Origin: an uncultured Lachnospiraceae bacterium
Lineage (GTDB): Bacteria; Bacillota; Clostridia; Lachnospirales; Lachnospiraceae
DNA: 64,000 nt
Reading direction: 5' to 3'
Assembly: GCA_902781655.1 (NCBI GenBank)
Contig: CACZJZ010000007.1
Location: 45,131 to 109,130 of the forward strand
The translations under genes were made by a program, and so were the position numbers. Shown piece after piece: positions 7,248 to 50,634 of this stretch (positions within the stretch are counted from its first letter, which is position 1; every line of letters starts with the position of its first letter). A model generated the notes under the pieces. The model was not told the origin of the DNA, did not search any database, and saw only the letters and a list, made by a program, of their open reading frames with translations.

Positions 7248-8893
7248 GATGAAAGCTTCTCCTGGTAGATATCCTTGTTGATGATTTCGGTGATGCGGAT
7301 CCCGAAATTATCTTCCACGACAACAATATCTCCCTTCGCGATGCACTCGCCATTGACATACAGGTCCGCCTGCTCGCCGGCCATCTTGTCGAGAACCACC
7401 AGAGAACCCTGCGTCAGCTCTAGAATTTCCCTCACCGGCTTCATGGTTCTCCCGATTTCCACGGACAGCTCCAGCGGCACCTTCATCAGCATCTCGCGGT
7501 TCTCCGGAACCTCTGCCGCGTTCTTCTCATCCTCGGGAAAGGTCTGGGAATTGGCTGAGCGGATGACCGTGTTCTCCCGTTTTCCGGTTCCGGGCGCAGG
7601 CTGCGGCGATTCTGACCGCTTTTCCTCCCCCGCTCTCATATCCCGGATCAGCTCCAGCATCTGCGCCTGGGACTGCTGCATGGAATTGAGCAGCTGCATC
7701 ATCATCGGCTCCATGGCAGAGGCGCCTGCGGCGGCTCCGAATGCAGTTCCCTGCGGCATCTGCGCCGACTGGCTCTGCGCATCGGCGGACGCCGGAGGGC
7801 CCCCGGCAGACGCTGTCCCGGCAGACGCCGCAGAAACTCCGGCAGACGCTGTTCCGGCAGATGCCGCAGAAATTTCGGCGGACGCCGGCTGAGCCGGTGT
7901 CTTCTCCTCCGCGGCGGGAGCAGCTGCGGTTCCAGACCCAGTGGATGCCGGCTGCTCGTCTGCCGCGCTCAGCTGCGCATCGGCCATCTCCGCCCTTGTC
8001 TTCGCAAGAATCGCATCCATCTCTTCCTGCGTCATCGGACGGTTGCCCGCGGACATGCCCTTTGCCTTGGCGATCAGCGCGTCTGTCTCGGCCTGGTTCA
8101 GGACTCCGCCCGCCGGAGGCATCTGCGGAATCGGATCCTCCACGGCAACACTCTCCTGCGGCTGGGCTTCCGGCGCAGCGCTCTCCTGCGGCTGGACTTC
8201 CGGCGCAGTGCTCTCCTGCGGCTGGGCTTCCGGCGCGCTGCTCTCTTCCCCGGCATCCGTTTTCTGCTCTGTGCTTTCCGCGTTTCCATCCGGAATGCCC
8301 ATGCTGTCGCGGAACGGTTCGATCATCTTCTTCGCGAGATCGACCGTCATGATATTCATGAATTCCGACGAGATTTTGTCTCCAACCTCCAGGGTAAAAC
8401 GCACTACGACATATTGCTCGTTACCCGGAAAGTACTCGTCCTTGAAATCCTTCTCGTTGCCGATCTCGAAGCTCTGCGGCGTGGAAATATTTACCGTGTA
8501 GCCGAGGAATTCGGACAGTGCTGTCGCTGCTGAACCCATCATCTGATTCATCACTTCGCAGATGGCGCTCTTGTTCATTTCGTCCATCTCGAACTGATCT
8601 TCCGGTATTTCCATCTGCATCATCATGCCGACGATGATACGCACATCGCGTCTGCTGAACAGCATGATGTTGCGGCCCGACAGTCCTTCCGTATAGGAAA
8701 TCGCCACACCGATGGCCGGCTCAAGGTCCTTGAACTGGAAGCTCTTCTTCGTCTGCACCTTGACGACCGGAGTGGTGATGTTTGTCTGTGCGCCAAGAAG
8801 ATTGGATACCGCTGTCGCGGACGCTCCCAGCGAGATATTCATAATCTCGCCGATCGCGTCAATCTCCATGTCGCTGAATTTCGTTGAGGCCAT
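7244..8893 (-). CDS. fliY: Flagellar motor switch phosphatase FliY (CheC domain + FliN/SpoA domain)
   Basis: A 549-aa switch-complex protein. Residues 1-195 are a CheC-like CheY-P phosphatase domain with two complete active-site patterns [D/S]x3Ex2Nx22P: D12-E16-N19-P42 and S109-E113-N116-P139. Residues 465-545 are the FliN/SpoA domain (LELSVEIGRTMKPVREILEL, then DIVVVEDNFGIRITEI). The 270-residue linker holds a triple PEAQPQES repeat, two motifs like the CheY-binding peptide of FliM (LNQAETDALI at 265-274 and MTQEEMDAIL at 287-296), and an Ala/Ser-rich repeat. It is much longer than B. subtilis FliY (about 380 aa). A GGAGGAG site precedes the ATG. Confidence 0.93.
   Translation of the reverse strand: MASTKFSDMEIDAIGEIMNISLGASATAVSNLLGAQTNITTPVVKVQTKKSFQFKDLEPAIGVAISYTEGLSGRNIMLFSRRDVRIIVGMMMQMEIPEDQFEMDEMNKSAICEVMNQMMGSAATALSEFLGYTVNISTPQSFEIGNEKDFKDEYFPGNEQYVVVRFTLEVGDKISSEFMNIMTVDLAKKMIEPFRDSMGIPDGNAESTEQKTDAGEESSAPEAQPQESTAPEVQPQESAAPEAQPQESVAVEDPIPQMPPAGGVLNQAETDALIAKAKGMSAGNRPMTQEEMDAILAKTRAEMADAQLSAADEQPASTGSGTAAAPAAEEKTPAQPASAEISAASAGTASAGVSAASAGTASAGGPPASADAQSQSAQMPQGTAFGAAAGASAMEPMMMQLLNSMQQSQAQMLELIRDMRAGEEKRSESPQPAPGTGKRENTVIRSANSQTFPEDEKNAAEVPENREMLMKVPLELSVEIGRTMKPVREILELTQGSLVVLDKMAGEQADLYVNGECIAKGDIVVVEDNFGIRITEIINKDIYQEKLSS
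7803..7874 (-). repeat. 36-nt tandem repeat inside fliY (two copies)
   Basis: Two near-identical 36-nt copies (7803-7838 and 7839-7874, three differences) in the linker-coding part of fliY. They encode alternating SAASAGTASAG-type sequence. They are in frame, so copy-number change would lengthen or shorten the linker without disrupting the domains. Confidence 0.85.
8151..8240 (-). repeat. 30-nt tandem repeat inside fliY (three copies)
   Basis: Three 30-nt copies (8151-8180, 8181-8210, 8211-8240) with only a few substitutions, encoding the decapeptide repeat of PEAQPQES type in the FliY linker. The near-identity at DNA level points to recent expansion by slippage or recombination. Confidence 0.9.
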
Positions 8894-14043: not shown

Positions 14044-14943
14044 TTAATCCTGTGTCGTTTCTGCTGTCTGCGCATCCGTTCCTGTCTGCGCTTCTGTTTC
14101 AGTCTGCGCTTCTGTTTCAGTCTGTGCGTCCGTCAGTGCCGCGGTTCCGGCGACGGTATCGCCGGACGCGTTTGTATCTGCGTCTTCCGCAGCATCCGCC
14201 GCATCTGTCCGATTTTCGCTGCCGGATGCCGCAGTCACCATCTCCTGCCCTGCGTCCCCGCTTTCGGAAGCGAAACCGGTCTGTGCCGTTTCTGAATCCC
14301 CGGCGTTCTCCGATACCTTTGTGTCCGCCGTCTGGCCAGCGTCGATCCCGGGGAGTTCTTTCTCCGCCGCGGAATCGGCGCTGTTCCCCGTTCCTGCCGT
14401 TCTGGCCGCTTCCGCTTCCTTCGCCTTTTCCAGTGCCAGAAGCAGATCTGCGGCTGTATCTCCCCGCAGAACATCCGTGAGCGGATCCGCACTTGTTTCC
14501 GTCGCGCCGCCCACAGAGACGATGCTGTCCAGTCCGTATTCCGTCTGATCGCCGGCAATCCGAATGGAAGGAACGCCGCCGGACAGGCTGACAGTTTCCA
14601 CCGTCCCCTCTTTCTGTACCGTCGCGCCGGTCTTCTCATCCACGGCGCTCAGCATCACCTTTCTTCCGATCAGACTCGCCGCATAGCTCTGCTGACTGAG
14701 TGCCGTCGAGTTTTTGACAGAAGTGGTCATCGCGGTGAGGGACTGAATCATTGCCATCTGTGACATCTGATTCATCAGATCACTGCTGTCCATCGGATTC
14801 GTCATGTCCTGATTGGCCATCTGCGCCGCCAGCAGCTTGAAATAGCTGGTGATTGAGAGCGTATTCTTGTCCGTCGCTTCCGGAGAGTAAGTGGCAGTGC
14901 TGTACGGGTCTGACGTGGTGCTCACAGCATTGATATTCGCCAT
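14044..14943 (-). CDS. flgD: Flagellar hook cap protein FlgD
   Basis: A 299-aa hook assembly scaffold. Residues 30-75 (YFKLLAAQMANQDMTNPMD, then NQMSQMAMIQSLTAM) are the conserved FlgD N-terminal region. Residues 85-150 form a small beta domain (LIGRKVMLSAVDEKTG). The last 130 residues are acidic, Ala/Thr/Glu-rich and end in a TETEAQ repeat; the DNA there has two identical 18-nt copies (14085-14102, 14103-14120). It is preceded by AGGAGG and lies 14 nt after fliK. Confidence 0.92.
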   Translation of the reverse strand: MANINAVSTTSDPYSTATYSPEATDKNTLSITSYFKLLAAQMANQDMTNPMDSSDLMNQMSQMAMIQSLTAMTTSVKNSTALSQQSYAASLIGRKVMLSAVDEKTGATVQKEGTVETVSLSGGVPSIRIAGDQTEYGLDSIVSVGGATETSADPLTDVLRGDTAADLLLALEKAKEAEAARTAGTGNSADSAAEKELPGIDAGQTADTKVSENAGDSETAQTGFASESGDAGQEMVTAASGSENRTDAADAAEDADTNASGDTVAGTAALTDAQTETEAQTETEAQTGTDAQTAETTQD

Positions 14944-33476: not shown

Positions 33477-33749
33477 TTAGTTGATAGCATCCTTCAGAGC
33501 CTTGCCGGCCTTGAACTTCGGAGCCTTGGAAGCCTTGATCTTCATAACCTTGCCGGTCTGCGGGTTGCGGCCCTCACGAGCAGCTCTCTCGGAAACCTCA
33601 AACGTGCCGAAGCCAACCAGCTGAACCTTCTCGCCCTTCTTCAGTTCCTCAGTCACTGTCTCGACCAGTGCCTTTACTGCTGCCTCAGAATCCTTCTTTG
33701 AAAGGTCTGCCTTCTCCGCAACAGCAGAAATCAGTTCTGTCTTATTCAT
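33477..33749 (-). CDS. hup: DNA-binding protein HU
   Basis: A 90-aa histone-like protein. The pattern [28 protein letters not shown] and GRNPQTGK is that of bacterial HU. It forms homodimers that bend and compact DNA. The ATG at 33749 has AGGAGG 8 nt upstream. A strong promoter (33812-33840) precedes it and a hairpin follows, fitting a highly expressed monocistronic unit. Confidence 0.97.
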
Positions 33750-38932: not shown

Positions 38933-40684
38933 TCACAGCAGCCGGATACGGTTCTGCAGCATGCCGCCGACCGTATCGGCAAACTCATCCATATGGCGGA
39001 TGCGGGCAAAATCGCTGCCGTAGATGCGGTGCACATTCGGCAGGGCGTCGTCCTCTCCCGTGAAGACGCACATCACCGTGATCCCCTGCATCCTCGCCTG
39101 ATGCACCTCGGCCGCGGTGTCCTCCACGCCGAGCCCCGCCGCATAGTCGCGGTATGTGCCGTTTTCCGTCCGCACCTTGATCACGTCGTTCGGCTTGCAG
39201 TCTGACAACACGATGAGCATCCTGTGCTCCGCGTGATTCTCCTTCATCATACCGGCCGCCAGCCGGATTGCAAGGCCGTCCCGGTTCGCGCCCGCGGCAA
39301 AATACCGGAAGACACCCCGGTTTTCCCTGACCTCGTCATAATCCCGATAGATCGTCAGAATGGTATATCCGTTCAGCGAGCAGAAGGAGTACAGTCGCAC
39401 CGGAATCCCGCAGTTTGTCAGCGCCTGCGCCGTCATATATCCCTGCGCCGCCACCGCCTCCTGCCTGTGCAGCTGCGAGGTCGAGGCATCCAGCAGAATA
39501 TCCACCGTCAGATTTCCGCTGTCTCCCGGGATCGTCCGGTCGAAGATTTTGTCCTCTCCCAGGTACAGCGCCCTCCAGACACGGGCTGCGCTGATCCTGC
39601 CCGTCACAGATTTTACCGTCTGCTCGTCCAGATGCGTCAGGAGAGAATTCCGGATCCGTCCTGTCAGCTTCTCGATCTGAACCCGGTAGATACCGCTGTT
39701 CGCCGCGTAGGCCTTCTCGTTGGATTTTGCCTGCTCCAGCGCCGCCCGGCGCATCTTCGCGGCATAGGAGTGATCCGCCGTGTTCCTCTCCTCCGAATAT
39801 CCGCGCGTGATATGCAGCTTCACATCTGTGTGATTGCCGCAGCAGTAGTCCCGCTGCAGCCTGCGGAGCGTCTTTTCGTCGTGCATCGGCCGTCCGAAAT
39901 AATCGGTGATGTACTGCTTCATGCCCTCGTCACTCTGGGCCGTGTACGCCGCAAAAGCCACACTGAGATGGCTCTGGTCCAGCACCTCGCTGCCGTACTC
40001 CGACACATGCTCCCCGTAGCCGAAGGACATCCGCCGCACCGGAGACGTCTGACCCTCCGGCCGCTTTCTCCGCACCCGCAGCGACAGCAGCGCGAGCGGA
40101 TTGCGGATGCCCTTCCCCTCGCGGCCATCATCCGGTCTCCCCGGGCGATAGGGAAAATATTTTGACAGCGTCCGGGTCAGGTGCGCAATCACCTCCTCGG
40201 TCGTGAGATCCGGACCAAGCTCAATCTCATCGAGCAGATGAACGTCCACCAGATCCGGAAGCCCGGCGTCCTCGCCGAGTGCCCGCCGGAAATGCCCGAG
40301 CGTCACCGCAAGAAGCCGCTGCCCGCTGTGGTCCTCGGAGATCTGCCCGCGGGCCTCCTGCACCTTCTTCTGCGCATAGCGCCGCCTCAGGTATGGGAAA
40401 ACCGGTCGCAGATCCTTCTCCTTCTCATACACCGCATTTTCCAGCGCCAGCCAGAACAGACTCTCATACGTTCCCTGATCCACCCGCTCATGAAACGTCT
40501 GATAGAACAGCATCAACTTCTTCCAGTCATAATGCAGATGGATTGCGCCGATGACACTGTTCCAGTATACATCCGCCCGCCCGTCCGAATCGTAGACCCG
40601 GAAGCCGGTCTCAATGGTATAATCATGCGCGCTGTTCCAGATCAGGTTGGCCGCCCGTTTTTTCTCAAAATCCGAAATTTCCAA
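38933..40684 (-). CDS. VWA-domain protein, NorD/CobT-like
   Basis: A 583-aa protein with a C-terminal von Willebrand factor A domain (about residues 385-575). The MIDAS motif DASTS (DILLDASTSQ) and the LSDCKPND strand are present, as is NRDGLAIRLAAG. The N-terminal 380 residues are helical and charged, with a TSPVRRMSFGYGEHVSEYGSE stretch I cannot assign. Such proteins work with a MoxR-type ATPase as a chaperone pair; the ATPase gene stands directly upstream (108 nt). The client is unknown: no nitric-oxide reductase, cobaltochelatase or methanol dehydrogenase gene is nearby. Confidence 0.82.
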   Translation of the reverse strand: MEISDFEKKRAANLIWNSAHDYTIETGFRVYDSDGRADVYWNSVIGAIHLHYDWKKLMLFYQTFHERVDQGTYESLFWLALENAVYEKEKDLRPVFPYLRRRYAQKKVQEARGQISEDHSGQRLLAVTLGHFRRALGEDAGLPDLVDVHLLDEIELGPDLTTEEVIAHLTRTLSKYFPYRPGRPDDGREGKGIRNPLALLSLRVRRKRPEGQTSPVRRMSFGYGEHVSEYGSEVLDQSHLSVAFAAYTAQSDEGMKQYITDYFGRPMHDEKTLRRLQRDYCCGNHTDVKLHITRGYSEERNTADHSYAAKMRRAALEQAKSNEKAYAANSGIYRVQIEKLTGRIRNSLLTHLDEQTVKSVTGRISAARVWRALYLGEDKIFDRTIPGDSGNLTVDILLDASTSQLHRQEAVAAQGYMTAQALTNCGIPVRLYSFCSLNGYTILTIYRDYDEVRENRGVFRYFAAGANRDGLAIRLAAGMMKENHAEHRMLIVLSDCKPNDVIKVRTENGTYRDYAAGLGVEDTAAEVHQARMQGITVMCVFTGEDDALPNVHRIYGSDFARIRHMDEFADTVGGMLQNRIRLL

Positions 40685-40792
40685 ATTGATCCCCGCACCG
40701 CATCCTCTGCGGCATCCACAGGAAAATTGCCCGGATGGACATTTTCCCGGCTCATGACTGTGGCACGCGTGTCACGTCCGGTTGTCCTGCAC

Positions 40793-41716
40793 TCACTCCG
40801 CAAACATCTGATCGTGTCCCAGATCTCCCGGGAAACGCACCGCAATCATATCCTGCACCAGCTGACGCTCATACTCGTCAAAGCATTTATTGACAATGCC
40901 CAGCTGCAGCGCCTGCACCGCGGGCAGCCCGCGGCTCATCATCCGGATCGCGGCAAGCAGGCCGCGCAGATCCAGCGCCTTCGTCGAAATTTCCCCGCCC
41001 TCGCACTTGCGCCGGACATCGCTGAACAGCTGCGCAAACTGACTGAGATACTCCTCCCGGAGCTCGGGATACTTATCCCGAATCAGCTTCTTCAGATTTT
41101 GCTCCGTGATGACCGGCATCTGAATAATCATAAACCGGGAAGCCAGCGCCTCATTGATCTCCCGGGTCCCGGCATATCCGTAATTCATTGTTCCGATAAA
41201 CCGCGTCGCATCCGACAGCGCAATCCTGTTATAGCCCGGCACATCGATGATCCGGCGGAAATCCAGCGCCGCATGCAATACCGCCAGCGACTCATTCTTC
41301 GCCATATTGATTTCATCCAGAACGCCGAAGCCGCCCTCCTCCGCACACTGCAGAATCGGCCCTTTCCGAAGCGTCACCCGCCCATTCTCGAACGTATCCT
41401 GCCCGATCAGAGACCCGGCGTCCGTGTTGATATAAAACGAAACATCCCACTCCGGCCGCCGGAACGCCGCGGACAACCCCATCGCCAGCACATTCTTGCC
41501 CGTCGCCTTCGGCCCCACCAGCAGCAGATTCTCCCCCGCGAGAATCGTCGACAGCGCCTCCTCCCAGATCTCCTTCCCGTAATAATGATACTGCGGAACC
41601 GGAATCCGACTCAGACACCCATCCTTCAGCCGATAAAACTGCCGGAAATCCTCCACATCCTTCAGAATCCGCTCCGAAACCCCTTCCGACCTCAGAAACT
41701 CCAGAATATCGCTCAT
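40793..41716 (-). CDS. MoxR-family AAA+ ATPase
   Basis: A 307-aa ATPase. The Walker A region reads GPKATGKN, with Asn in place of the usual Ser/Thr after the lysine; Walker B is GVLDEINMAK; a sensor-1 type NYGYAG follows. The pairing with the downstream VWA protein is the MoxR/NorQ-NorD arrangement, used for maturation or metal insertion of partner complexes. The start is the ATG at 41716 with GGAAGG upstream; an in-frame extension would run into the palindromic repeat at 41736-41806 and is not coding. The start is 20 nt from that repeat. Confidence 0.85.
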   Translation of the reverse strand: MSDILEFLRSEGVSERILKDVEDFRQFYRLKDGCLSRIPVPQYHYYGKEIWEEALSTILAGENLLLVGPKATGKNVLAMGLSAAFRRPEWDVSFYINTDAGSLIGQDTFENGRVTLRKGPILQCAEEGGFGVLDEINMAKNESLAVLHAALDFRRIIDVPGYNRIALSDATRFIGTMNYGYAGTREINEALASRFMIIQMPVITEQNLKKLIRDKYPELREEYLSQFAQLFSDVRRKCEGGEISTKALDLRGLLAAIRMMSRGLPAVQALQLGIVNKCFDEYERQLVQDMIAVRFPGDLGHDQMFAE

Positions 41717-41735
41717 AGACTCCCCTTCCATAGAA

Positions 41736-41806
41736 ATTGTCCCTAACGAGTTTAGCTTGTTCGGGACAATTTTTGTCCCAAACAAGCTAAACTCGTTAGG
41801 GACAAT
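41736..41806. repeat. Palindromic repeat cluster A (two 35-nt units, 36-nt period)
   Basis: A 71-nt near-perfect palindrome: 26 bp, one C/A mismatch, 7 bp, and a 3-nt loop. It consists of two 35-nt units (41736-41770 and 41772-41806), each itself palindromic (ATTGTCCC...GGGACAAT around a 5-nt loop TTTAG or CTAAA), in opposite loop orientation. It lies in the gap between cstA and the MoxR gene, so a transcript into MoxR would carry a 34-bp hairpin right before its ribosome site. The same unit occurs at 47803-47898. Confidence 0.95.
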
Positions 41807-41809
41807 CAG

Positions 41810-41839
41810 AATCGCCCGGTGCGCAGGCACCGGGCGATT
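41810..41839. terminator. Hairpin after cstA (probable terminator)
   Basis: Perfect 13-bp inverted repeat AATCGCCCGGTGC / GCACCGGGCGATT with a 4-nt loop, 44 nt downstream of the cstA stop. No T-run follows, but the stem is very GC-rich. Confidence 0.65.
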
Positions 41840-41882
41840 CCCGTCAGCCGGACGTTTCATCCGGAAAATCTTCACTTGCTTC

Positions 41883-43529
41883 TCAGGCCTTTGCCTGCGC
41901 CGCTTTCTTCTTTCCATTTACCACGCAGAGGGCCAGGTAGCAGATGGTGAACACTGCCGCCACAATATAAGCTGCTGTCCAGCTCATTGCCGAGGAGCCG
42001 GCGGTCTGCGCCGGGTTGTGCACGATGAACGAGCAGGTCGCAAAGGCATAGAACGCAGCCGGGATAAGCGGCACCCAGACGAATTTGCCCTTGCCGTTCT
42101 TGAACATCCAGGCGGCGATGCAGGCCAGCGCGAACAGGGAGATCATCTGGTTGGACCATGCGAAGTATCTCCAGAGAATGTTAAAGCCATTCGCATTGAA
42201 TTTTGCCCAGAGCAGAATCACGAAGACCAGAGCGAACACCGGTGCAGCCAGCGCGATACGCTGTCTGTTGTTCTCCTGGCGGATGTGCAGGGAATCAGCC
42301 AGCGTCAGGCGCAGTGCGCGGAGCGCGGTATCGCCGGAGGTGATCGGAAGAACCACAACGCCGATGAGGGCGATGGTGCCGCCGATGCTGCCGAGCGCGT
42401 CACGGCAGACGACGCCGGTGACTGCAGCCGCGCCAATCTGATGGAAGAACTGATCCCCGGCCTGAATGTAGGAAGCATTCAGCGCACCGTTCGTGAGTGC
42501 CTTCTCCGCGGTTGTGAGCTGAAGATAGCTGTTGCCCATCATGGAGAGGCCGCCGTTCGCCGCGCCGAGATTGATCATCGCCATCGTCCCGGCTGCCCAG
42601 CACATCGCAATGAAGCCTTCCACGATCATCATGTTGTAGAAGCACATCCGGCCGTTCTTCTCCGACTCAATGGTTCTGGACACCAGTGCGGTCTGCGTGC
42701 TGTGGAATCCGGAGAGGATGCCGCAGGCAACCGTCAGGAAGAACACCGGAATGAAGTGGCTGGCATTGAAGTACGTGCCGTAGTCAAAACCCGACGCGTT
42801 GATGGTGACGGCGGCGCCGGTCGAGTCAACGCCCTGGATCGTGCTGGATACCGTGTTCCAACTGTCCCAGATATTCGTCAGCGGATACTGATGCGCGAAG
42901 ATCGCGACAAAAATGCCCAGCGCCGAGAACACCAGAATGATGCCGAAGATCGGATAAACACGGCCGATCAGTTTGTCGATCGGCAGGCAGGTCGCCAGGA
43001 AATAGTATGCGAAGATGATAACATACACGATCCACGTCGTCGGATCGGTCGCCGCGCCGGACCACTTGAAGATCTGCGTCGTCGCGATATCGCCGGGGGT
43101 GTAGATGAACACCGCGCCGACAAGCAGCAGAAGCAGGCAGATGAATACATCATACAAAATATATACGGTCCGGTTTGTGTAATCCTTCACAAAATCCGGC
43201 ATCTGTGTGCCGCCATCCCGCGTGCAGATCATGCCCGAGAAATAATCGTGCATCGACCCGCCGATCACGTTGCCGATCGGAATCGCCAGAAACGCCGCCG
43301 GCCCGAACAGAATACCCTGAATCGGTCCCATGATCGGACCCGTTCCGGCGATGTTCAGCAGATTGATCAGACTGTTCCGCCATGTCTTCATGGGGACATA
43401 GTCCACGCCGTCCTGCCTTGAGTAGGCCGGTGTCTCGCGGTCGTCCGGTCCGAAAATGTTCTCGCAGAACTTACCGTACAGCGCGCCGCCGCAGATAAGA
43501 ATCACGAGACCGATAAGAAATGTTGCCAT
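41883..43529 (-). CDS. cstA: CstA-family carbon starvation protein (pyruvate/peptide transporter)
   Basis: A 548-aa polytopic membrane protein with well over ten hydrophobic segments. Family blocks: PAYSRQDGVDYVPMKTWRNS, NIAGTGPIMGPIQGILFGPAAFLAIPIGNVIGG and HDYFSGM. In enteric bacteria CstA-type proteins take up pyruvate (and were linked to peptides) on starvation. It is shorter than E. coli CstA (about 700 aa). The ATG at 43529 follows AGGAGGG. It is a single-gene unit with its own promoter and a hairpin after it. Confidence 0.9.
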   Translation of the reverse strand: MATFLIGLVILICGGALYGKFCENIFGPDDRETPAYSRQDGVDYVPMKTWRNSLINLLNIAGTGPIMGPIQGILFGPAAFLAIPIGNVIGGSMHDYFSGMICTRDGGTQMPDFVKDYTNRTVYILYDVFICLLLLLVGAVFIYTPGDIATTQIFKWSGAATDPTTWIVYVIIFAYYFLATCLPIDKLIGRVYPIFGIILVFSALGIFVAIFAHQYPLTNIWDSWNTVSSTIQGVDSTGAAVTINASGFDYGTYFNASHFIPVFFLTVACGILSGFHSTQTALVSRTIESEKNGRMCFYNMMIVEGFIAMCWAAGTMAMINLGAANGGLSMMGNSYLQLTTAEKALTNGALNASYIQAGDQFFHQIGAAAVTGVVCRDALGSIGGTIALIGVVVLPITSGDTALRALRLTLADSLHIRQENNRQRIALAAPVFALVFVILLWAKFNANGFNILWRYFAWSNQMISLFALACIAAWMFKNGKGKFVWVPLIPAAFYAFATCSFIVHNPAQTAGSSAMSWTAAYIVAAVFTICYLALCVVNGKKKAAQAKA

Positions 43530-43642
43530 GTTACCCTCCTCCTGGCCGCCGCCCACTGACGCGAAGGGCATCCCATTCCGGGCATCGATCTCTCCCCGCT
43601 CCAGTCATATCTGAAAGCTATGGCCATTGATATTTATTGAGA

Positions 43643-43671
43643 ATGATACTGCGATTCCTTATCGATTTCAA
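43643..43671 (-). promoter_or_regulatory. Promoter of cstA
   Basis: Minus-strand TTGAAA (43666-43671), 17-nt spacer, TATCAT (43643-43648), in an AT-rich stretch, about 115 nt before the cstA ATG. Confidence 0.5.
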
Positions 43672-43712
43672 TGAATATTTTATAGTTATTTCATAATTTG
43701 ATTATTTTTTGA

Positions 43713-44714
43713 TCACCGATACTCTCTCACCGCAAAAAGCGGCTTGATCTTCACAACCTCCTCGTAGTCCTCCTTCGATAGGACCGTCGTGCTATCCATC
43801 GCGCGAAGATCTTCCTTGAGTACGGCAAGTGCCTCATCTACCGTCTCAGCCCGCATTTCCTGCAAGATGCGGATGAGGCGGTCAAAGACAACGGGATGGG
43901 CGTACCAGACGGGAATCGGAAAATCCCTGCATCCTCTGAGTGCTCTCTCCATCGTCTCCACGGCCTCCTGGTACTCCCGGTCGCGCCGCTTCCGGTTTGT
44001 CAGCTTGCTCGGGAGCGCCCGGCTGCTCACCATCGTGAACATCATCATGATGCCGAAAAGGAGCATCAGGAGTCCGGCAACGCGGCCTCCTCTCCGGATG
44101 AATACCGCGCCGGCAGCGGTGATCACGCCTCCTGCTGCCAGAACAGCGACTGCCACCGCTCCCACCCACGGCCGGAATAGATCTGCATGGCGCTTGAGTT
44201 TTGCCATAGCGGCCATCTTATCGCTCATTGCCTGATGCTTGTGGACCTCCCAGCGGGCTTCCTCCAGCTGCCTCTTTGCTACGCGGGCCGTCTCCGACAG
44301 CTCATTGCGGGCCATCCGCGCCTCGATTTCCTCCCGCTCCCGTTTCTTCTCCTCGCCCTTCGGTGAGAGCTGGCTGATCTCGGGATGCGTCCGTTCCAGC
44401 TCGTTCTGCATGGCGTCGCAGTCCTGCAGATAGCGGAACGAACACTGCCGCTCCTTCCCATCCCCGTACTCCACAACCAGATACAGAATCGGCGCGAGAA
44501 ACCCCTTCCCCGCGAGATCGCTCCCCGATACCCGTTTGTAAACCCGCTTCACTTCCCCGTAAGGGATATAGTAATGACGCGGGTGCATCGTACTCCCGAA
44601 ATAAAGGAATTCCTCCCCCAGCCCGCACTGGTCATACTTCCGACACTTCTTCCGATCCGCGAGCACTCTCTTCGTGTCAAAATCCGTGCCCAGCGCTTCC
44701 ACCTTTTTACTCAT
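43713..44714 (-). CDS. Uncharacterised two-TM membrane protein
   Basis: A 333-aa protein, not recognised. Residues 1-110 are beta-rich (YFGSTMHPRHYYIPYGEVKRVY), possibly a PH-like fold. Residues 115-180 are a long charged helix (KGEEKKREREEIEARMARNEL). Two transmembrane helices follow (about 188-208 and 213-231), then a helical cytoplasmic tail. The start overlaps the stop of the RsuA-type gene (ATGA), so the two are translated together, but I see no functional link. Confidence 0.65.
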   Translation of the reverse strand: MSKKVEALGTDFDTKRVLADRKKCRKYDQCGLGEEFLYFGSTMHPRHYYIPYGEVKRVYKRVSGSDLAGKGFLAPILYLVVEYGDGKERQCSFRYLQDCDAMQNELERTHPEISQLSPKGEEKKREREEIEARMARNELSETARVAKRQLEEARWEVHKHQAMSDKMAAMAKLKRHADLFRPWVGAVAVAVLAAGGVITAAGAVFIRRGGRVAGLLMLLFGIMMMFTMVSSRALPSKLTNRKRRDREYQEAVETMERALRGCRDFPIPVWYAHPVVFDRLIRILQEMRAETVDEALAVLKEDLRAMDSTTVLSKEDYEEVVKIKPLFAVREYR

Positions 44715-45484
44715 TCCGTTTCTGCCCTCCCCCGTCCCGCACTGTCCCGCAGCTCACGCAGTTCCTCTCCGGTCAGAGGCCGAACCTCGCCCGGCGCCAG
44801 CGCCGGGTCCAGCACCAGCGTGCCCATCGACAGCCGTTTCAAAGACAAAACCTGTTTCCCTACGGCGGCAAACATGCGCTTCACCTGATGATAGCGGCCC
44901 TCCGCGATCTCCACCATCGCCAGTGGAGCACCGTTTTCGTCTTCGTCCTGCGCCGCCCACAGTCTGGCCGGAGCCGCCCGGAATGCCGCACGGCCTCTGG
45001 CGGTCCCTGCCGTCTCGTCCTCCGGTACCGGAAGTCCCTCTGCGAACCGTCTGACGTCCTCGTCAGAAAACGGGCGGTCCAATTTTGCCAGATACTGCTT
45101 AGGCACATGCCTCCCCGGCGCGAGCAGGCTGTGCGCCAGCTGCCCGTCGTTCGTCAGAAGCAGCAGTCCCTCCGTGTCCTTGTCAAGACGCCCGACCGGC
45201 GCGAGATCCCGCCGTGTTGCCGCAGGAAGAAGATCCAGTACCGTCCTCTGCCGCGGATCCTCCGTCGCGCTGATCACGCCGGCCGGCTTATTCATCATGT
45301 AATATTCCACGGCATGCCAGACGACTGGTTCCCCCTCATATTCCACGCGATCCTCCGGTCCGACCGCGGCGTCGGCCTTTTTCACAGGAACGCCATTCAC
45401 AAAAACGGCACCGGCCCGAATCGCCTTCTTCAGGCCGCTCCGCGTTCCGATGCCCATATCCGCAAGATACTTGTCCAGCCTCAT
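44711..45484 (-). CDS. Pseudouridine synthase, RsuA family
   Basis: A 257-aa enzyme with an N-terminal S4 domain (MRLDKYLADMGIGTRSGLKKAI) and an RsuA/RluB-type catalytic domain with the active-site aspartate in GRLDKDTEGLLLLTNDG. It probably modifies 16S rRNA (RsuA, position 516 in E. coli), though RluB/RluE specificity cannot be excluded by sequence alone. The ATG at 45484 is chosen because the S4 domain starts there. It overlaps the next gene by 4 nt. Confidence 0.9.
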   Translation of the reverse strand: MRLDKYLADMGIGTRSGLKKAIRAGAVFVNGVPVKKADAAVGPEDRVEYEGEPVVWHAVEYYMMNKPAGVISATEDPRQRTVLDLLPAATRRDLAPVGRLDKDTEGLLLLTNDGQLAHSLLAPGRHVPKQYLAKLDRPFSDEDVRRFAEGLPVPEDETAGTARGRAAFRAAPARLWAAQDEDENGAPLAMVEIAEGRYHQVKRMFAAVGKQVLSLKRLSMGTLVLDPALAPGEVRPLTGEELRELRDSAGRGRAETE

Positions 45485-45609
45485 ATTGATACCCGTGCCG
45501 CATTTCCGGCGGCATCCGCAGCAGATAAATCCGCATGAATCCGCCCATCTTTCAGGAGCAGCAACAGGATATTGCCTCCCGCCGCAGCGCAACGTGTCAT
45601 GACACTCCC

Positions 45610-46632
45610 TCAGCCCTTATAATGCCGCCGATACGGTGCCCATGTCCGCTCACTGATGATATAGCGCGGCCGCCGCTTTGTCTCCAGATAAATTTTCCCG
45701 ATATATGTTCCGATCACGCCCAGCGAAAGCAGCTGAATACCGCCGAGAAAACAGATGATGCAGACCGTCGACGCCCAGCCCGCAACCGTGTGCCCGACCG
45801 CAGCCATCACGATAGCCCACACAATTCCGATAAATCCCACCAGACTCACGATACCGCCGAATCCGGTGATGATCGAAATCGGCTTGACCGACAGGCTCGT
45901 GATTCCGTCAAAGGCAAGCGCCAGCATTTTGCTCAGCGGATAGTGGCTGCTCCCAGCCATGCGCTCATGCCGCTCGTAGTAGACCTTTGCGCACGGATAT
46001 CCGACGAGCGGCACCAGCCCGCGCAGAAAGATATTGACCTCTTCAAAATCCGCGAAAGACTGCAGAACTCTCGCGCTGATGAGTCGGTAATCCGCGTGAT
46101 TATAGACCACCTCCGCGCCCATGCGGTTCAGCAGCCGATAGAAACTCTCCGCCGTGGTCCGTTTGAACCAGGTGTCCGTCGCCCGGGAAGAACGGACGCC
46201 ATAGACCACCTCCGCGCCCTTCAGATACTCGTCCACCATCTGATCCATCGCGTCAATATCGTCCTGCCCGTCACAGTCGATTGAAATGGTGATATCGCAG
46301 ACATCCTTCGCCTCCATCAGTCCGGCCAGCACCGCGTTCTGATGTCCGCGGTTCCGGCTCTGGCTGATCCCGATGTAATGGACATCCTGCGCGGCAAAAT
46401 CCGTGATCAGCTGCCACGTTTTGTCCTTTGACCCGTCGTTGACGAACAGCACCCGGCTCCTGTCGCTGATTTTGCCCGCTGCCGCAAGGCTCTGAATCTT
46501 CCCGAGGAAAAGCGGCGCAGTGATCGGAAGCACTGCCTCCTCATTGTAGCAGGGCACTACGATCCACAGAATCGGCTTTCCCTCCGGCGCGGCAACAGCT
46601 GTCCTCCGCATATCTTCCATATTCTCCTGCAT
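45610..46632 (-). CDS. GT2 glycosyltransferase, GtrB/polyprenyl-phosphate type
   Basis: A 340-aa enzyme. The GT-A domain (about 20-230) has VVPCYNEE, VNDGSKD, and the metal motif DCDGQDD. Two C-terminal transmembrane helices follow (about 265-290 and 300-322), with GTYIGKIYLETKRRPRY at the end. This layout is that of enzymes that load a sugar on a polyprenyl phosphate (GtrB, DPM1), supplying cell-envelope glycosylation. No GtrA flippase gene is adjacent. It is preceded by an AGGAGG about 12 nt before the ATG. Confidence 0.88.
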   Translation of the reverse strand: MQENMEDMRRTAVAAPEGKPILWIVVPCYNEEAVLPITAPLFLGKIQSLAAAGKISDRSRVLFVNDGSKDKTWQLITDFAAQDVHYIGISQSRNRGHQNAVLAGLMEAKDVCDITISIDCDGQDDIDAMDQMVDEYLKGAEVVYGVRSSRATDTWFKRTTAESFYRLLNRMGAEVVYNHADYRLISARVLQSFADFEEVNIFLRGLVPLVGYPCAKVYYERHERMAGSSHYPLSKMLALAFDGITSLSVKPISIITGFGGIVSLVGFIGIVWAIVMAAVGHTVAGWASTVCIICFLGGIQLLSLGVIGTYIGKIYLETKRRPRYIISERTWAPYRRHYKG

Positions 46633-46735
46633 GACGGTCTCTGCCTCCTATGACTCCAGCTCATTGTATCATAGCGCTTCCGGCCATTCACAGATTCTTC
46701 ATGTTTCTTTCATTCTTTTCCACGCCATGACATTC

Positions 46736-46741
46736 TATAAT
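46736..46741 (+). promoter_or_regulatory. -10 element for the DJ-1/PfpI gene
   Basis: A perfect TATAAT 42 nt before the ATG at 46783. The -35 region is poor. Confidence 0.4.
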
Positions 46742-46782
46742 GGAATTGACAATTGAATGATCAGTCCAGGAGGACCTTACTT

Positions 46783-47352
46783 ATGAATACAACAAAAAAT
46801 CCCCCCCGCCTCGCCCTTTTTCTCGCGGACGGATTTGAGGAAGTGGAAGCGCTCACCGTCGTCGATCTGCTTCGCCGTGCGGACATTTCCGTGACTACCG
46901 TCTCCATCACAGACCGCCGCGAGGTTACTTCCTCCCATCGGGTTACTGTGCTTGCGGACACCATCCTTGACGAGCTGAATTTTGACGCATTGAACGGCCT
47001 GGTACTGCCGGGCGGTATGCCGGGTACGACAAATCTCGCCGCCTGCGCTCCTCTGACCGCGCAGATTCGAAACTTCGCCGCGGACGGCCGGGAAGTCTGC
47101 GCCATCTGTGCCGCTCCTACCATTCTCGCCTCGCTCGGACTCCTCGAGGGAAAACCAGCCACCTGCTTCCCTGCGCGCGAACCCGATATGCGCGGCGCCG
47201 TCCTGACCCATGCACCCCAGACCGTGACCGGCAATATCATCACAGGGCGCAGCATGGGCTGCGCCATCGATTTTGCCCTCGCCATCGTGGAGCACTACCA
47301 GGGCAGAGACGCCGCAGACCAGCTGAAACAGGCTATCGCGTTTCCATACTGA
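46783..47352 (+). CDS. DJ-1/PfpI family protein
   Basis: A 189-aa protein of the DJ-1/YajL group: FLADGFEEVEALTVVDLLRRA at the start, LVLPGGMPGTTNL near residue 75, and the nucleophile cysteine in VCAICAAPTILA (about 106-117), plus NIITGRSMG near 157. The family includes protein chaperones and enzymes acting on glyoxal-type adducts; exact activity cannot be deduced. CAGGAGGACC precedes the ATG. It is followed after 33 nt by the CBS gene. Confidence 0.92.
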   Translation: MNTTKNPPRLALFLADGFEEVEALTVVDLLRRADISVTTVSITDRREVTSSHRVTVLADTILDELNFDALNGLVLPGGMPGTTNLAACAPLTAQIRNFAADGREVCAICAAPTILASLGLLEGKPATCFPAREPDMRGAVLTHAPQTVTGNIITGRSMGCAIDFALAIVEHYQGRDAADQLKQAIAFPY

Positions 47353-47385
47353 CCGCAGGAACAGCATTGGGGGTTACAATTTCTC

Positions 47386-47811
47386 ATGAACATCTTATTC
47401 TTCCTCACGCCCAAGGCGCAGGTCCGTTATGTGGGAGCGGACGACACTTTGCGCCAGGCGCTTGAAAAAATGGACCATTACCAGTATGCATCCGTCCCGA
47501 TTGTCGACGAGAAAACCGGCCATTACATCGGCACCCTGACCGAAGGCGACCTGCTGCGCACCATAAAGGAACAGTATGACCTCTCCCTCCGAAAGGCCGA
47601 GGATATCCCGCTCCGCCACGTACCCCGGAAACGCGACTACCTCCCCATTACCGCGTCCGCCAACATTGAAGACATCGTCCAGGCAGCCATCTCACAGAAC
47701 TTCATTCCCGTCGTGGACGACCTCGGCTGCTTCATCGGCATCATCACCCGCCGGGAAGTCATCCGCTTCCTCCAGAACTGCATCCAGCGCGGAAAACCCG
47801 AGCAAGTTTAG
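47386..47811 (+). CDS. CBS-domain protein
   Basis: A 141-aa protein with two CBS domains (about residues 8-62 and 75-135), the usual adenosine-nucleotide-sensing pair, and no other domain. TLRQALEKMDHYQYASVPIVDEKTGHYIGTLTEGDLLR is the first unit; FIPVVDDLGCFIGIITRREVIRFL belongs to the second. Its target is unknown. Its last codons (CAAGTTTAG) lie inside palindromic repeat cluster B, which supplies the stop codon. Probably co-transcribed with the DJ-1 gene. Confidence 0.85.
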   Translation: MNILFFLTPKAQVRYVGADDTLRQALEKMDHYQYASVPIVDEKTGHYIGTLTEGDLLRTIKEQYDLSLRKAEDIPLRHVPRKRDYLPITASANIEDIVQAAISQNFIPVVDDLGCFIGIITRREVIRFLQNCIQRGKPEQV

Positions 47812-47898
47812 CCTGTTTGGTACAAAAATTGTCCCTAACAAGTTTAGCTTGTTAGGGACAATTTTTGTACCAAACAGGCTAAACTTGTTAGGGACAAT
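47803..47898. repeat. Palindromic repeat cluster B (36-nt period, about 2.7 units)
   Basis: A perfect 40-bp stem with a 5-nt loop (47803-47887), plus 11 nt more. Units: a truncated one (47803-47826), 47828-47862 (ATTGTCCCTAACAAG-TTTAG-CTTGTTAGGGACAAT, perfect 15-bp stem) and 47864-47898. The period of 36 nt is the same as in cluster A. It fills the gap between the convergent CBS and lacI-type genes and overlaps the CBS stop codon, so it can work as a bidirectional terminator. Confidence 0.95.
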
Positions 47899-47903
47899 CG
47901 CAT

Positions 47904-48935
47904 TCATTTCCTGCATCCGCTTGACTCCCGAATCACCAGCTCCGCCGGCATGAGGATAGTCTGTGGCTGTCGTTTCTTGCTGATCATGTCGAAAAGCAGC
48001 GTGATGGTTGCCTCCGCCATTTGTTCCACAGGCTGGCGGACCGTGGTGAGGCGGGGAATATAAAAGTCCCCGGTACTGATTCCATCATATCCCACGATCG
48101 AAATATCCTTCGGAATGGCCAGTCCTGCGTCCGCCGCTGCGCGGCAGGCGCCGATGGCAAAAACATCTGCGGTGCAGAAGATCGCTGTCATCTCCGCCCC
48201 GGAATGGATCAGTTTCCATGCCATGCGGTAGCCGTTCTCAATAGTATAGCGCTCCGATTCACCCTGCGGCGCCTCTTCGATGAGATCGGGATTCAGCTTC
48301 AGTCCATGTGCGGCGATCGCCCTGCGGTATCCCTCGAAGCGGAGCTGTCCCACCGATTTTGTCAGCAGATTATCCCCAATGATAGCGATGCTGCGGTGTC
48401 CCTGCTCAATCAGATAGTCAACCATTTTCTCCGATTCGGCCACGTCATCCACCGCAACATTGGCGTACCAGGAAGGTTCGCCCTGCAGCGCCCCGATCGT
48501 GGAGAAAACGAAGGGCACCTTCAGCTGCCGCAGCATCGCGTCGTCATGGACAAAATTTCCGCCGAGGAAGACAATTCCCCTCAGTCTGCGCTCCTTGACC
48601 AGTTCCAGCGCGACCTGCACTTCCTCCTCGTCGGCCTCCACATGGCGCAGAATCGTGGAATAATGGTTCTCCTCAATCCGGTGTTCCATGATTTTGATCA
48701 TGGTATTGAAAAACGGGTTGGTGATTCCCTTCACAAGAAGTGCGACGGCCTTCGAATCCGTTTTCTTCAAATTGATCGCACTGTTGTTCGGAACAAATCC
48801 CGTTTCCCGGATCACCTGCATGATCTTCTGGCGCGTCTCCGGGTTGATATCCGGATGGTTATTCAGTGCCCGCGACACGGTGCTGACACTGCATCCGCAC
48901 AGCCGTGCAATATCCTTGATTGTTGTCTCAGCCAT
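47904..48935 (-). CDS. LacI-family transcriptional regulator
   Basis: A 343-aa regulator. The N-terminal helix-turn-helix and hinge (TTIKDIARLCGCSVSTVSRALNNHPDI, residues 3-30) are followed by a periplasmic-binding-like sensor domain (about 62-335). The ATG at 48935 is chosen from the family start. It is the last gene of the malQ-transporter cluster, 175 nt after malQ, and probably controls it through the CCGGTA-N4-TACCGG operator at 54215-54230. The inducer is likely a malto-oligosaccharide, from context only. Confidence 0.92.
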   Translation of the reverse strand: MAETTIKDIARLCGCSVSTVSRALNNHPDINPETRQKIMQVIRETGFVPNNSAINLKKTDSKAVALLVKGITNPFFNTMIKIMEHRIEENHYSTILRHVEADEEEVQVALELVKERRLRGIVFLGGNFVHDDAMLRQLKVPFVFSTIGALQGEPSWYANVAVDDVAESEKMVDYLIEQGHRSIAIIGDNLLTKSVGQLRFEGYRRAIAAHGLKLNPDLIEEAPQGESERYTIENGYRMAWKLIHSGAEMTAIFCTADVFAIGACRAAADAGLAIPKDISIVGYDGISTGDFYIPRLTTVRQPVEQMAEATITLLFDMISKKRQPQTILMPAELVIRESSGCRK

Positions 48936-49110
48936 AGTTTTCTTCCCCGCTCGGATATTTCCCCTCTGAAAACGCCCTGCTTTCATAAAAGAACTCAGGG
49001 TCCGATGCCGCGCAGCATCAGACCCCGTTTTGACAATGCATGCCGCCAAAAATACGGCCTGGGTATCAATTCACTCCATTGCTCCAAAATCCGCCGCAGC
49101 ACTCGTCATC

Positions 49111-50634
49111 TTACAATCTTCCATACGTCGCTGTAAAGAGATGGATTTCCTCCGCCAGTTCGTCCGTGAGCTGTCCCGGAAGCAGCCGCCATCTCCAGTT
49201 GATACCGCCGAGCGTCGACGGGTGGTTGATGCGCGCGTCATTGCCGAGATCCAGCCAGTCCTGCGCCGGAATGATCGCCGTATCCGCAACGCTCATGAAA
49301 GCGCAGCGGATAAAATCCCTCGTCGCCCGCTTCGTGCTCACAATGCCGACGTACCGCTTCGCGAACGCCCGGTCGTGCGGATTCACATCGCCAAACCAGC
49401 CCCGCATCGTCTCGTTGTCGTGCGTCCCGGTGTATACAACACAGTTATGGCTGTAATTGTGCGGCAGATAATCGCTCTCCTCGCGGGAATCGAAGGCAAA
49501 CTGCAGCACCTTCATGCCCGGATACCCGGTCTTCTTCACAAGCCGGATCACCGACGGCGTCAGATATCCGAGGTCCTCGGCGATGATCGGACGATTTCCC
49601 AGCGTTTTCTTCAGCGTGTCGAACAGGGCATACCCGGGTCCTGCCGCCCATTTTCCATTGACCGCGGTCTTCTCCCCGTACGGGATCTCGTAATACTCGT
49701 CAAAACCGCGGAAGTGATCGATCCGTACGATGTCATAGCGCCGGAAGCAGTTGGCAAGCCGCTCCATCCACCAGGCAAAATCCGTGCTCCTGTGATACTC
49801 CCAGTTGTAAATCGGATTTCCCCACAATTGTCCCGTCGCGGAGAACCCATCCGGCGGGCACCCGGCCACCACCGTCGGATACCCATTTTCGTCCAGCTTG
49901 AACAGCTCCGGATGACTCCATGTATCCGCGCTGTCAAAGGCGACGTAAATCGGAATATCCCCGATAATCTGGATGCCGCTCCTGTTTGCATAAGCCTTGA
50001 GTGCTTCCCACTGCCGACTGAAATAATACTGCTGAAACCTGTAAAATTGCATCTCGTCTGAGAGTTTTTCCCGGCAAGCCTTCAATGCTTCCGGTTTTCT
50101 CAAGCGGATATCGTCGTCCCACTCAATGAAGCATTTTCCGCCCTGTTCCGCCTTCACGGCGCTGTACAGCGCGTAATCCTCCAGCCAGGACGCCTCCCTC
50201 TCACAAAATGCGTCAAAATCCTTCCTTGCCGCATCATACGCCGTACCGGCGAAGACACCCTTCGGCTGCTCCGCGTAGGGACTGTTCTCATACGCCTTTT
50301 TCAGCAGAGCAAACCGCACCGCATAGATCTGCCCATAATCGACGTACTTTGGATCGCTGCCAAAATCCACAGCGTCCAGTTCCTCCTTCGTGAGAAAACC
50401 CTCCTCCACAAAGGCGTCCAGATCAATAAAATAGGGATTTCCCGCATAGGTAGAAAAAGACTGATACGGAGAATCGCCGTACCCGGTCGGTCCCAGTGGC
50501 AGGATCTGCCAATAGGCCTGCCCTGCCTTTTTCAGAAAATCAACAAACTCATAAGCTTCCTGCGAGAAGCAGCCTATGCCGTACTTAGACGGCAGACTTG
50601 CCACCGGAAGCAGAATCCCGCTTTTACGTTTCAT
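49111..50634 (-). CDS. malQ: 4-alpha-glucanotransferase (GH77)
   Basis: A 507-aa disproportionating enzyme that moves glucan chains between maltodextrins. Family blocks: SGILLPVASLPSKYGIG at the start, YWQILPLGPTGYGDSPYQSFST, GDIPIYVAFDSADTW near residue 220, VRIDHFRGFDEYYEIP with nucleophile Asp (about 298), IIAEDLGYLTP with acid/base Glu (about 345), and YTGTHDNET. The ATG at 50634 is set by the family start. Downstream of the permease genes by 118 nt; with the GH13 enzyme it would break down the imported maltodextrins. Confidence 0.95.
   Translation of the reverse strand: MKRKSGILLPVASLPSKYGIGCFSQEAYEFVDFLKKAGQAYWQILPLGPTGYGDSPYQSFSTYAGNPYFIDLDAFVEEGFLTKEELDAVDFGSDPKYVDYGQIYAVRFALLKKAYENSPYAEQPKGVFAGTAYDAARKDFDAFCEREASWLEDYALYSAVKAEQGGKCFIEWDDDIRLRKPEALKACREKLSDEMQFYRFQQYYFSRQWEALKAYANRSGIQIIGDIPIYVAFDSADTWSHPELFKLDENGYPTVVAGCPPDGFSATGQLWGNPIYNWEYHRSTDFAWWMERLANCFRRYDIVRIDHFRGFDEYYEIPYGEKTAVNGKWAAGPGYALFDTLKKTLGNRPIIAEDLGYLTPSVIRLVKKTGYPGMKVLQFAFDSREESDYLPHNYSHNCVVYTGTHDNETMRGWFGDVNPHDRAFAKRYVGIVSTKRATRDFIRCAFMSVADTAIIPAQDWLDLGNDARINHPSTLGGINWRWRLLPGQLTDELAEEIHLFTATYGRL

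Follow-up and report, generated by a model that had tools for sequence, protein, structure and literature searches.

How does a repeat come to supply the stop codon of a bacterial gene, and what keeps the halves of such a repeat complementary? These questions are raised by a 64,000-nucleotide stretch of DNA from an uncultured Lachnospiraceae bacterium (hereafter the window), in which a palindromic array lies at the end of a gene for a CBS-domain protein (table 1). The protein scores 68.8 bits against the NCBIfam model for CbpB, that is, below the cut-off of 125 bits. The next gene, which we take to be a LacI-type regulator from the look of its N-terminus, is encoded on the minus strand, so that the two genes converge upon the array.

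A first, sequence-only reading of this locus had described three units at a 36-nt period between convergent genes, with a perfect 40-bp stem and a repeat that begins at 47803 and includes the stop codon. All of this is recovered by the arm scan and by direct inspection: three arms of 33 nt, spaced by 36 nt, span 47793–47897, and the outer ten positions of the first (47793–47802) are gene sequence, the repeat proper starting at 47803. The same reading held all frames through the units to be open, but this does not stand, as on each strand one frame is open and the other two contain stops. The region folds very stably, both as RNA (−82.9 kcal/mol, z = −15.0) and as DNA (−50.1, z = −16.7), none of 200 shuffles being equally stable in either case. 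A simple promoter and terminator scan called no promoter near the array and no terminator-like site at it, and no Rfam family matched window positions 40000–50000 at its gathering score; the seven matches obtained were all below threshold and were mostly hairpin look-alikes.

Table 1. Features of the array and its surroundings, in window coordinates.
Feature	Position	Strand	Basis or remark
CBS-domain protein, 141 aa	47386..47811	+	best NCBIfam model is the c-di-AMP-binding protein CbpB
TAG stop of CBS-domain gene	47809..47811	+	within arm 1
Arm 1	47793..47825	+	arm scan and sequence
Arm 2 (middle)	47829..47861	+	14-bp palindrome in itself, loop TTTAG at 47843–47847
Arm 3	47865..47897	-	inverted relative to arm 1; arm scan and sequence
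Perfect 40-bp stem	47803..47887	.	47803–47842 exactly complementary to 47848–47887, 5-nt loop TTTAG
Neighbouring gene, next called, convergent to CBS gene	47904..48935	-	gene calls
Second copy in window	41737..41805	+	usual two-arm doublet, loop TTT, adjoins an intrinsic-terminator-like hairpin

The array is one member of a large dispersed family, as had been suggested by analogy with REP/BIME elements. Indeed, the genome to which the window belongs (G000; 2.76 Mb in 53 contigs) contains about 110 arms: blastn gave at least 80 matches, 40 of the 70 candidates having been scored, and the arm pattern, with up to three mismatches, gave 110 against a single match for the reversed control, which excludes chance. 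In a sister genome (G006), the corresponding values were 109 and 0. The unit is a 33-nt imperfect palindrome of the form TTGTCCC...GGGACAA, and copies usually consist of two such arms in inverted orientation, approximately 69 nt in total with a spacer of approximately 3 nt; a doublet of this kind can form a single long hairpin. The stretches fetched from G000 represent 50 distinct sites (37 doublets, 11 singles and 2 triplets), and those from G006 represent 58 (34 doublets and 24 singles). In each genome set, all 38 two-arm clusters scanned are inverted with TTGTCCC outward, a few loci being counted twice. A perfect 33-bp stem is found in 36 of 67 doublets (18/37 in G000 and 18/30 in G006); for these stem and arm counts, a second fetch of the copy at window position 41737 (L025) was excluded, and G006 is represented by L057–L084. 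Across 29 doublets, the mean distance between copies is 8.4% in G000 and 7.2% in G006.

Within the genus, the pattern with up to two mismatches was detected in 4 of 62 genomes (G000, G006, G004 and G059; the control in one genome) and, within the order, the pattern with up to one mismatch was detected in 2 of 392 (G000 and G434). In G059 and G434, the pattern matches isolated 20-mers and the remainder of the arm is absent; we took these matches as chance and did not count them as family. By pattern, the family is thus present in 2 of the 62 genomes of the genus, the window's own included, and on one contig of a third bin, all four matches in G004 being located on contig C14. Two stretches from this contig (L144 and L145) are 91–93% identical to the window, and the other CBS homologue of G004, on a different contig, is only 52% identical; C14 was therefore probably binned wrongly and would belong to a third close species. 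A collection of 84,980 species, each represented by a single genome, was searched with an exact doublet-core pattern, and 28 stretches were retrieved, all titled uncultured Lachnospiraceae RUG554; the window's own genome may be missing from this collection. Viral contigs gave no match to the repeat. Our literature search found nothing on REPINs together with RAYTs in Firmicutes or on RUG554; works on REP in Lachnospiraceae were unrelated by title, and no title on palindromes or MITEs in Clostridia was on point.

Copies of the family are predominantly intergenic. Among 43 rows for G000, in which one site is counted twice, 40 lie outside the ORFs called by a home-made gene caller, and the remaining three (two of which are one site) look like start-codon artefacts. 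Copies are often located a few bases past a stop codon, and in 8 of the 43 rows a called gene ends 10–19 nt inside the repeat. A stop codon supplied by the repeat is described as a habit of GTAG REPs (PMC3733652). At the edges, the preceding base is A or T at 97 of 97 sites and the following base at 95 of 97, with no sign of mutual dependence between the two. Flank counts yield these A/T edges and no tetranucleotide, a head of the GTAG or GGAG type being absent. For target-site duplication, 100 sites with long enough flanks were kept and the 97 with intact ends tested, and no enrichment was observed at 4–9 nt over 64 end offsets; at 2–3 nt, 4 of 128 offset tests exceeded the threshold, most likely by chance.

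A search for a RAYT-like transposase, proposed in the sequence-only reading, led to a mixed outcome: with both the Pfam Y1_Tnp model and a RAYT-like profile, no intact REP-type transposase was found in G000 or G006, but both genomes retain, at one shared locus, a RAYT stump next to a family copy. The profile, made from 11 congeneric RAYT-like proteins (of three checked against the NCBIfam RAYT cut-off, one passes and two are below), matched an N-terminal stump at G006:C188:5263-5400 (E = 1.7e-9) and a shorter one at G000:C24:21375-21443 (E = 0.015, weak alone). These stumps occupy orthologous places, the one in G000 being 161 nt from the doublet L035:2046-2114 and the one in G006 near a remnant of that doublet. 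When both were compared with 16 proteins, RAYT-like ones were best (E = 9e-5 and 2e-4), and IS200 TnpA reached only E = 0.3–0.4. Both stumps continue into one and the same downstream gene, and the main truncation is therefore likely to be older than the split. We roughly estimate at 1% the chance that stump and doublet lie so close by accident; the stump is short, and the flanking copy is seen on one side only.

Two other candidates were rejected. The Y1_Tnp model gave nothing in G006 and, in G000, a sole match to an IS200/IS605-like TnpA fragment at a contig end (G000:C31:36330-36452, the end of L056), which is unrelated to the repeat and hence no support for an IS200 mobiliser. This fragment matches IS200-labelled proteins (best E = 1.8e-13) and not RAYT-like ones, the labels resting on Y1_Tnp scores, with L105 the one checked. 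Kinship with the palindromes around congeneric RAYT-like genes was also discarded, as the best arm match over 15 loci has 14 mismatches out of 33. RAYT-like genes are present in congeners without this repeat. Among the 11 such genes of the genus, GGGGAC[AG]G palindromes bracket four, lie near one side of two and do not occur in the fetched stretch of five; the six loci with palindromes (L146, L147, L150, L153, L154 and L155) are possibly living REPIN/TIR systems.

Comparison of the sister genomes, whose matching stretches are 85–100% identical, gives a picture of what the copies have undergone. For 29 of the 50 sites in G000, an occupied counterpart was present among the fetched G006 loci, and at nine of these 29 one genome displays two arms and the other one, mostly with a difference of approximately 36 nt. 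Extra flank changes accompany two of these nine differences; at L120/L079, the arm number differs despite flanks that are 99–100% identical. The four absent or shortened copies that were examined, a set outside which most unmatched sites lie, all keep remnants of 5–14 nt: two missing doublets leave TTGTCCC or GACAA, in G000 a single arm has shrunk to 13 nt, and in G006 approximately the first 14 nt of a doublet are left. These look like deletions, the shortest footprints (5–7 nt, at two sites) being weak signs of it. No virgin empty site was seen among the absences examined, and one G000 locus (L053) has no orthologous locus in G006. Two G000 sites (L035:9335 and L045) have two G006 counterparts each; two metagenomic populations are therefore probably mixed in this bin, and the number of arms found in it may be too high. 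The G006 pairs L064/L071 and L134/L142 are each a locus in two versions, with flanks 97–99% versus 75–90% identical to G000.

At the CBS-gene site, contig C14 of G004 carries the same three arms; owing to the poor score of the third, the arm scan reports them as two arms pointing the same way. The CBS protein found no match in G006. A repeat at one site with one unit number in all relatives had been named in the sequence-only reading as the mark of a fixed terminator. This is indeed what the CBS-gene site displays, as far as one relative shows, but the family itself is genome-wide. The suggestion that the family is mobile or amplifying now is not supported: the site is shared with a relative, and the clean empty site that was sought between relatives was not seen.

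In 15 pairs of orthologous doublets (14 between G000 and G006, one between G000 and G004:C14; pairs with copies outside 67–71 nt excluded), 472 of 495 stem columns are unchanged. Of the 23 others, 11 acquired a new match through change on both sides and 12 changed on one side, against approximately 0.2 two-sided changes expected, by our own arithmetic, from independent change. Between spacers of equal length (L027 and L050, with unequal spacers, were excluded), a flip from TTT to AAA or the reverse is seen in three of the five pairs with a two-sided change and in none of the eight without. The CBS-gene site also displays this behaviour, with a middle loop TTTAG in the window versus CTAAA in G004:C14 and 40 versus 37 of 40 stem positions paired. 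Both the homogenisation of arms and the inversion of spacers have been published as marks of template switching (PMC8604942, PMC8794818), and matched arm changes are already known for REPINs (PMC3116915); the less usual feature here is their persistence, together with spacer flips, where no new insertion was found.

In our view, with a probability of about 0.6, the array is a copy of a REPIN-like, miniature non-autonomous family that was spread by a RAYT and then frozen, its stems being matched by template switching. A RAYT-type (single-tyrosine HUH) transposase would have carried doublets to intergenic positions flanked by A or T, leaving the target unduplicated, presumably by movement through single strands, and the RAYT of the stump is the probable agent. 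Its gene would have been truncated before the two sister lineages separated, and copies may since have undergone arm loss, deletion or reworking in place. Template switching during replication, by which one arm is copied from the other and the spacer can be flipped, would keep the stems complementary, and this process rather than selection presumably accounts for their matching. As the cognate RAYT is present only as a stump and the classical head motifs fail, REPIN membership is probable and not proven. More tentatively, and at somewhat less than even odds, we propose that the family outlived its transposase and that arm complementarity has since been maintained by template switching alone, without transposition or hairpin selection.

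The joint changes could instead reflect compensatory evolution, if the hairpins were selected as RNA elements such as 3′ mRNA stabilisers, processing sites or bidirectional terminators. The intergenic location of the copies, often just past stop codons, fits this idea, and so does the excess of G.U over A.C mismatches on the sense strand at co-directional sites (16 versus 8, with 17 of other kinds), a weak hint of selection at the RNA level. However, no terminator was called at the window copy, a terminator-like hairpin lies directly beside 10 of 97 copies, where a second terminator would be redundant, copies are lost or halved between the sister genomes, and flipped spacers are left unexplained; we thus regard this explanation as unlikely. 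We give a similarly low weight to gene conversion between copies, which would replace only the last step of the template-switching scenario. Either process is expected to give matched changes, and the low distances among the 29 doublets would favour an exchange between copies. Nevertheless, copies under approximately 70 nt are short for recombination, and one matched variant is private to a single copy: each arm of L041:5742-5810 has C at position 12, a base found there in 2 of 134 arms.

Long inverted repeats that begin with TTGTCCC and occur in dispersed copies would also be expected of a MITE derived from a DDE insertion sequence, the arms being its terminal repeats. This origin appears very improbable, as the 97 sites tested lack a target duplication of 4 nt or more, no gene-enclosing arm pair was noticed by eye in the arm lists, and the sequence flanking single arms varies on both sides. 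As for a fixed terminator special to the CBS gene, the shared three-arm array of G004:C14 is what this idea predicts, but some 110 arms genome-wide refute it as a full account. Moreover, the C-termini differ in seven more distant CBS homologues, none of which has an arm within the 60 nt displayed past the stop, and we consider this explanation hardly tenable.

Among the closest systems described, the REPIN/REP-BIME families mobilised by RAYTs (PMC3116915) share several traits with ours: inverted hairpin doublets, an extragenic location, singlets beside doublets, matched arm changes, no gene of their own and a RAYT near a copy, here reduced to a stump. In contrast to the elements of that account, our family has no GTAG or GGAG head, its spacer is only approximately 3 nt and each arm is itself palindromic; no intact RAYT was found, and no current movement was seen. 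TIRYTs, RAYT-like transposases flanked by inverted repeats with the motif GGGGWSAS (PMC3733652, PMC6006769), offer another comparison, since their terminal repeats are described as lacking GTAG, as self-complementary in some cases and as occurring in dimers or clusters. In this genus, GGGGAC[AG]G palindromes stand on both sides of 4 of the 11 RAYT-like genes, which adds to this likeness. However, the arm ends WGGGACAA fit the TIRYT motif (PMC3733652) at six of eight positions and fail at two, so that they do not match it, and the gene is here a stump with one flanking copy.

With the inverted repeats attributed to template switching (PMC8604942, PMC8794818), our family shares arm homogenisation and the inversion of the spacer or loop. 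Those reports deal with yeast genes and RNA genes, whereas we compare a dispersed family between close genomes. Flips are mostly described there without arm changes (9 of 10 spacer flips in yeast, PMC8604942; for rRNA, compensatory change plus loop inversion was not significant, PMC8794818), whereas here they occur in pairs with arm changes. If arm complementarity is indeed maintained by template switching alone, a compensatory change in a REP element would not by itself show that the hairpin is in use. The REPIN literature cited here deals mainly with RAYT-holding genomes, and the present family seems to have been caught after the loss of its transposase. Arm number, spacer direction and stem pairing can thus be traced without new insertions, and the family allows one to ask directly whether matched arm changes need selection or movement.

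Apart from this family, the window contains further tandem repeats with a period of 18–36 nt, at 7803–7885, 8151–8245, 14066–14133 and 33492–33556.
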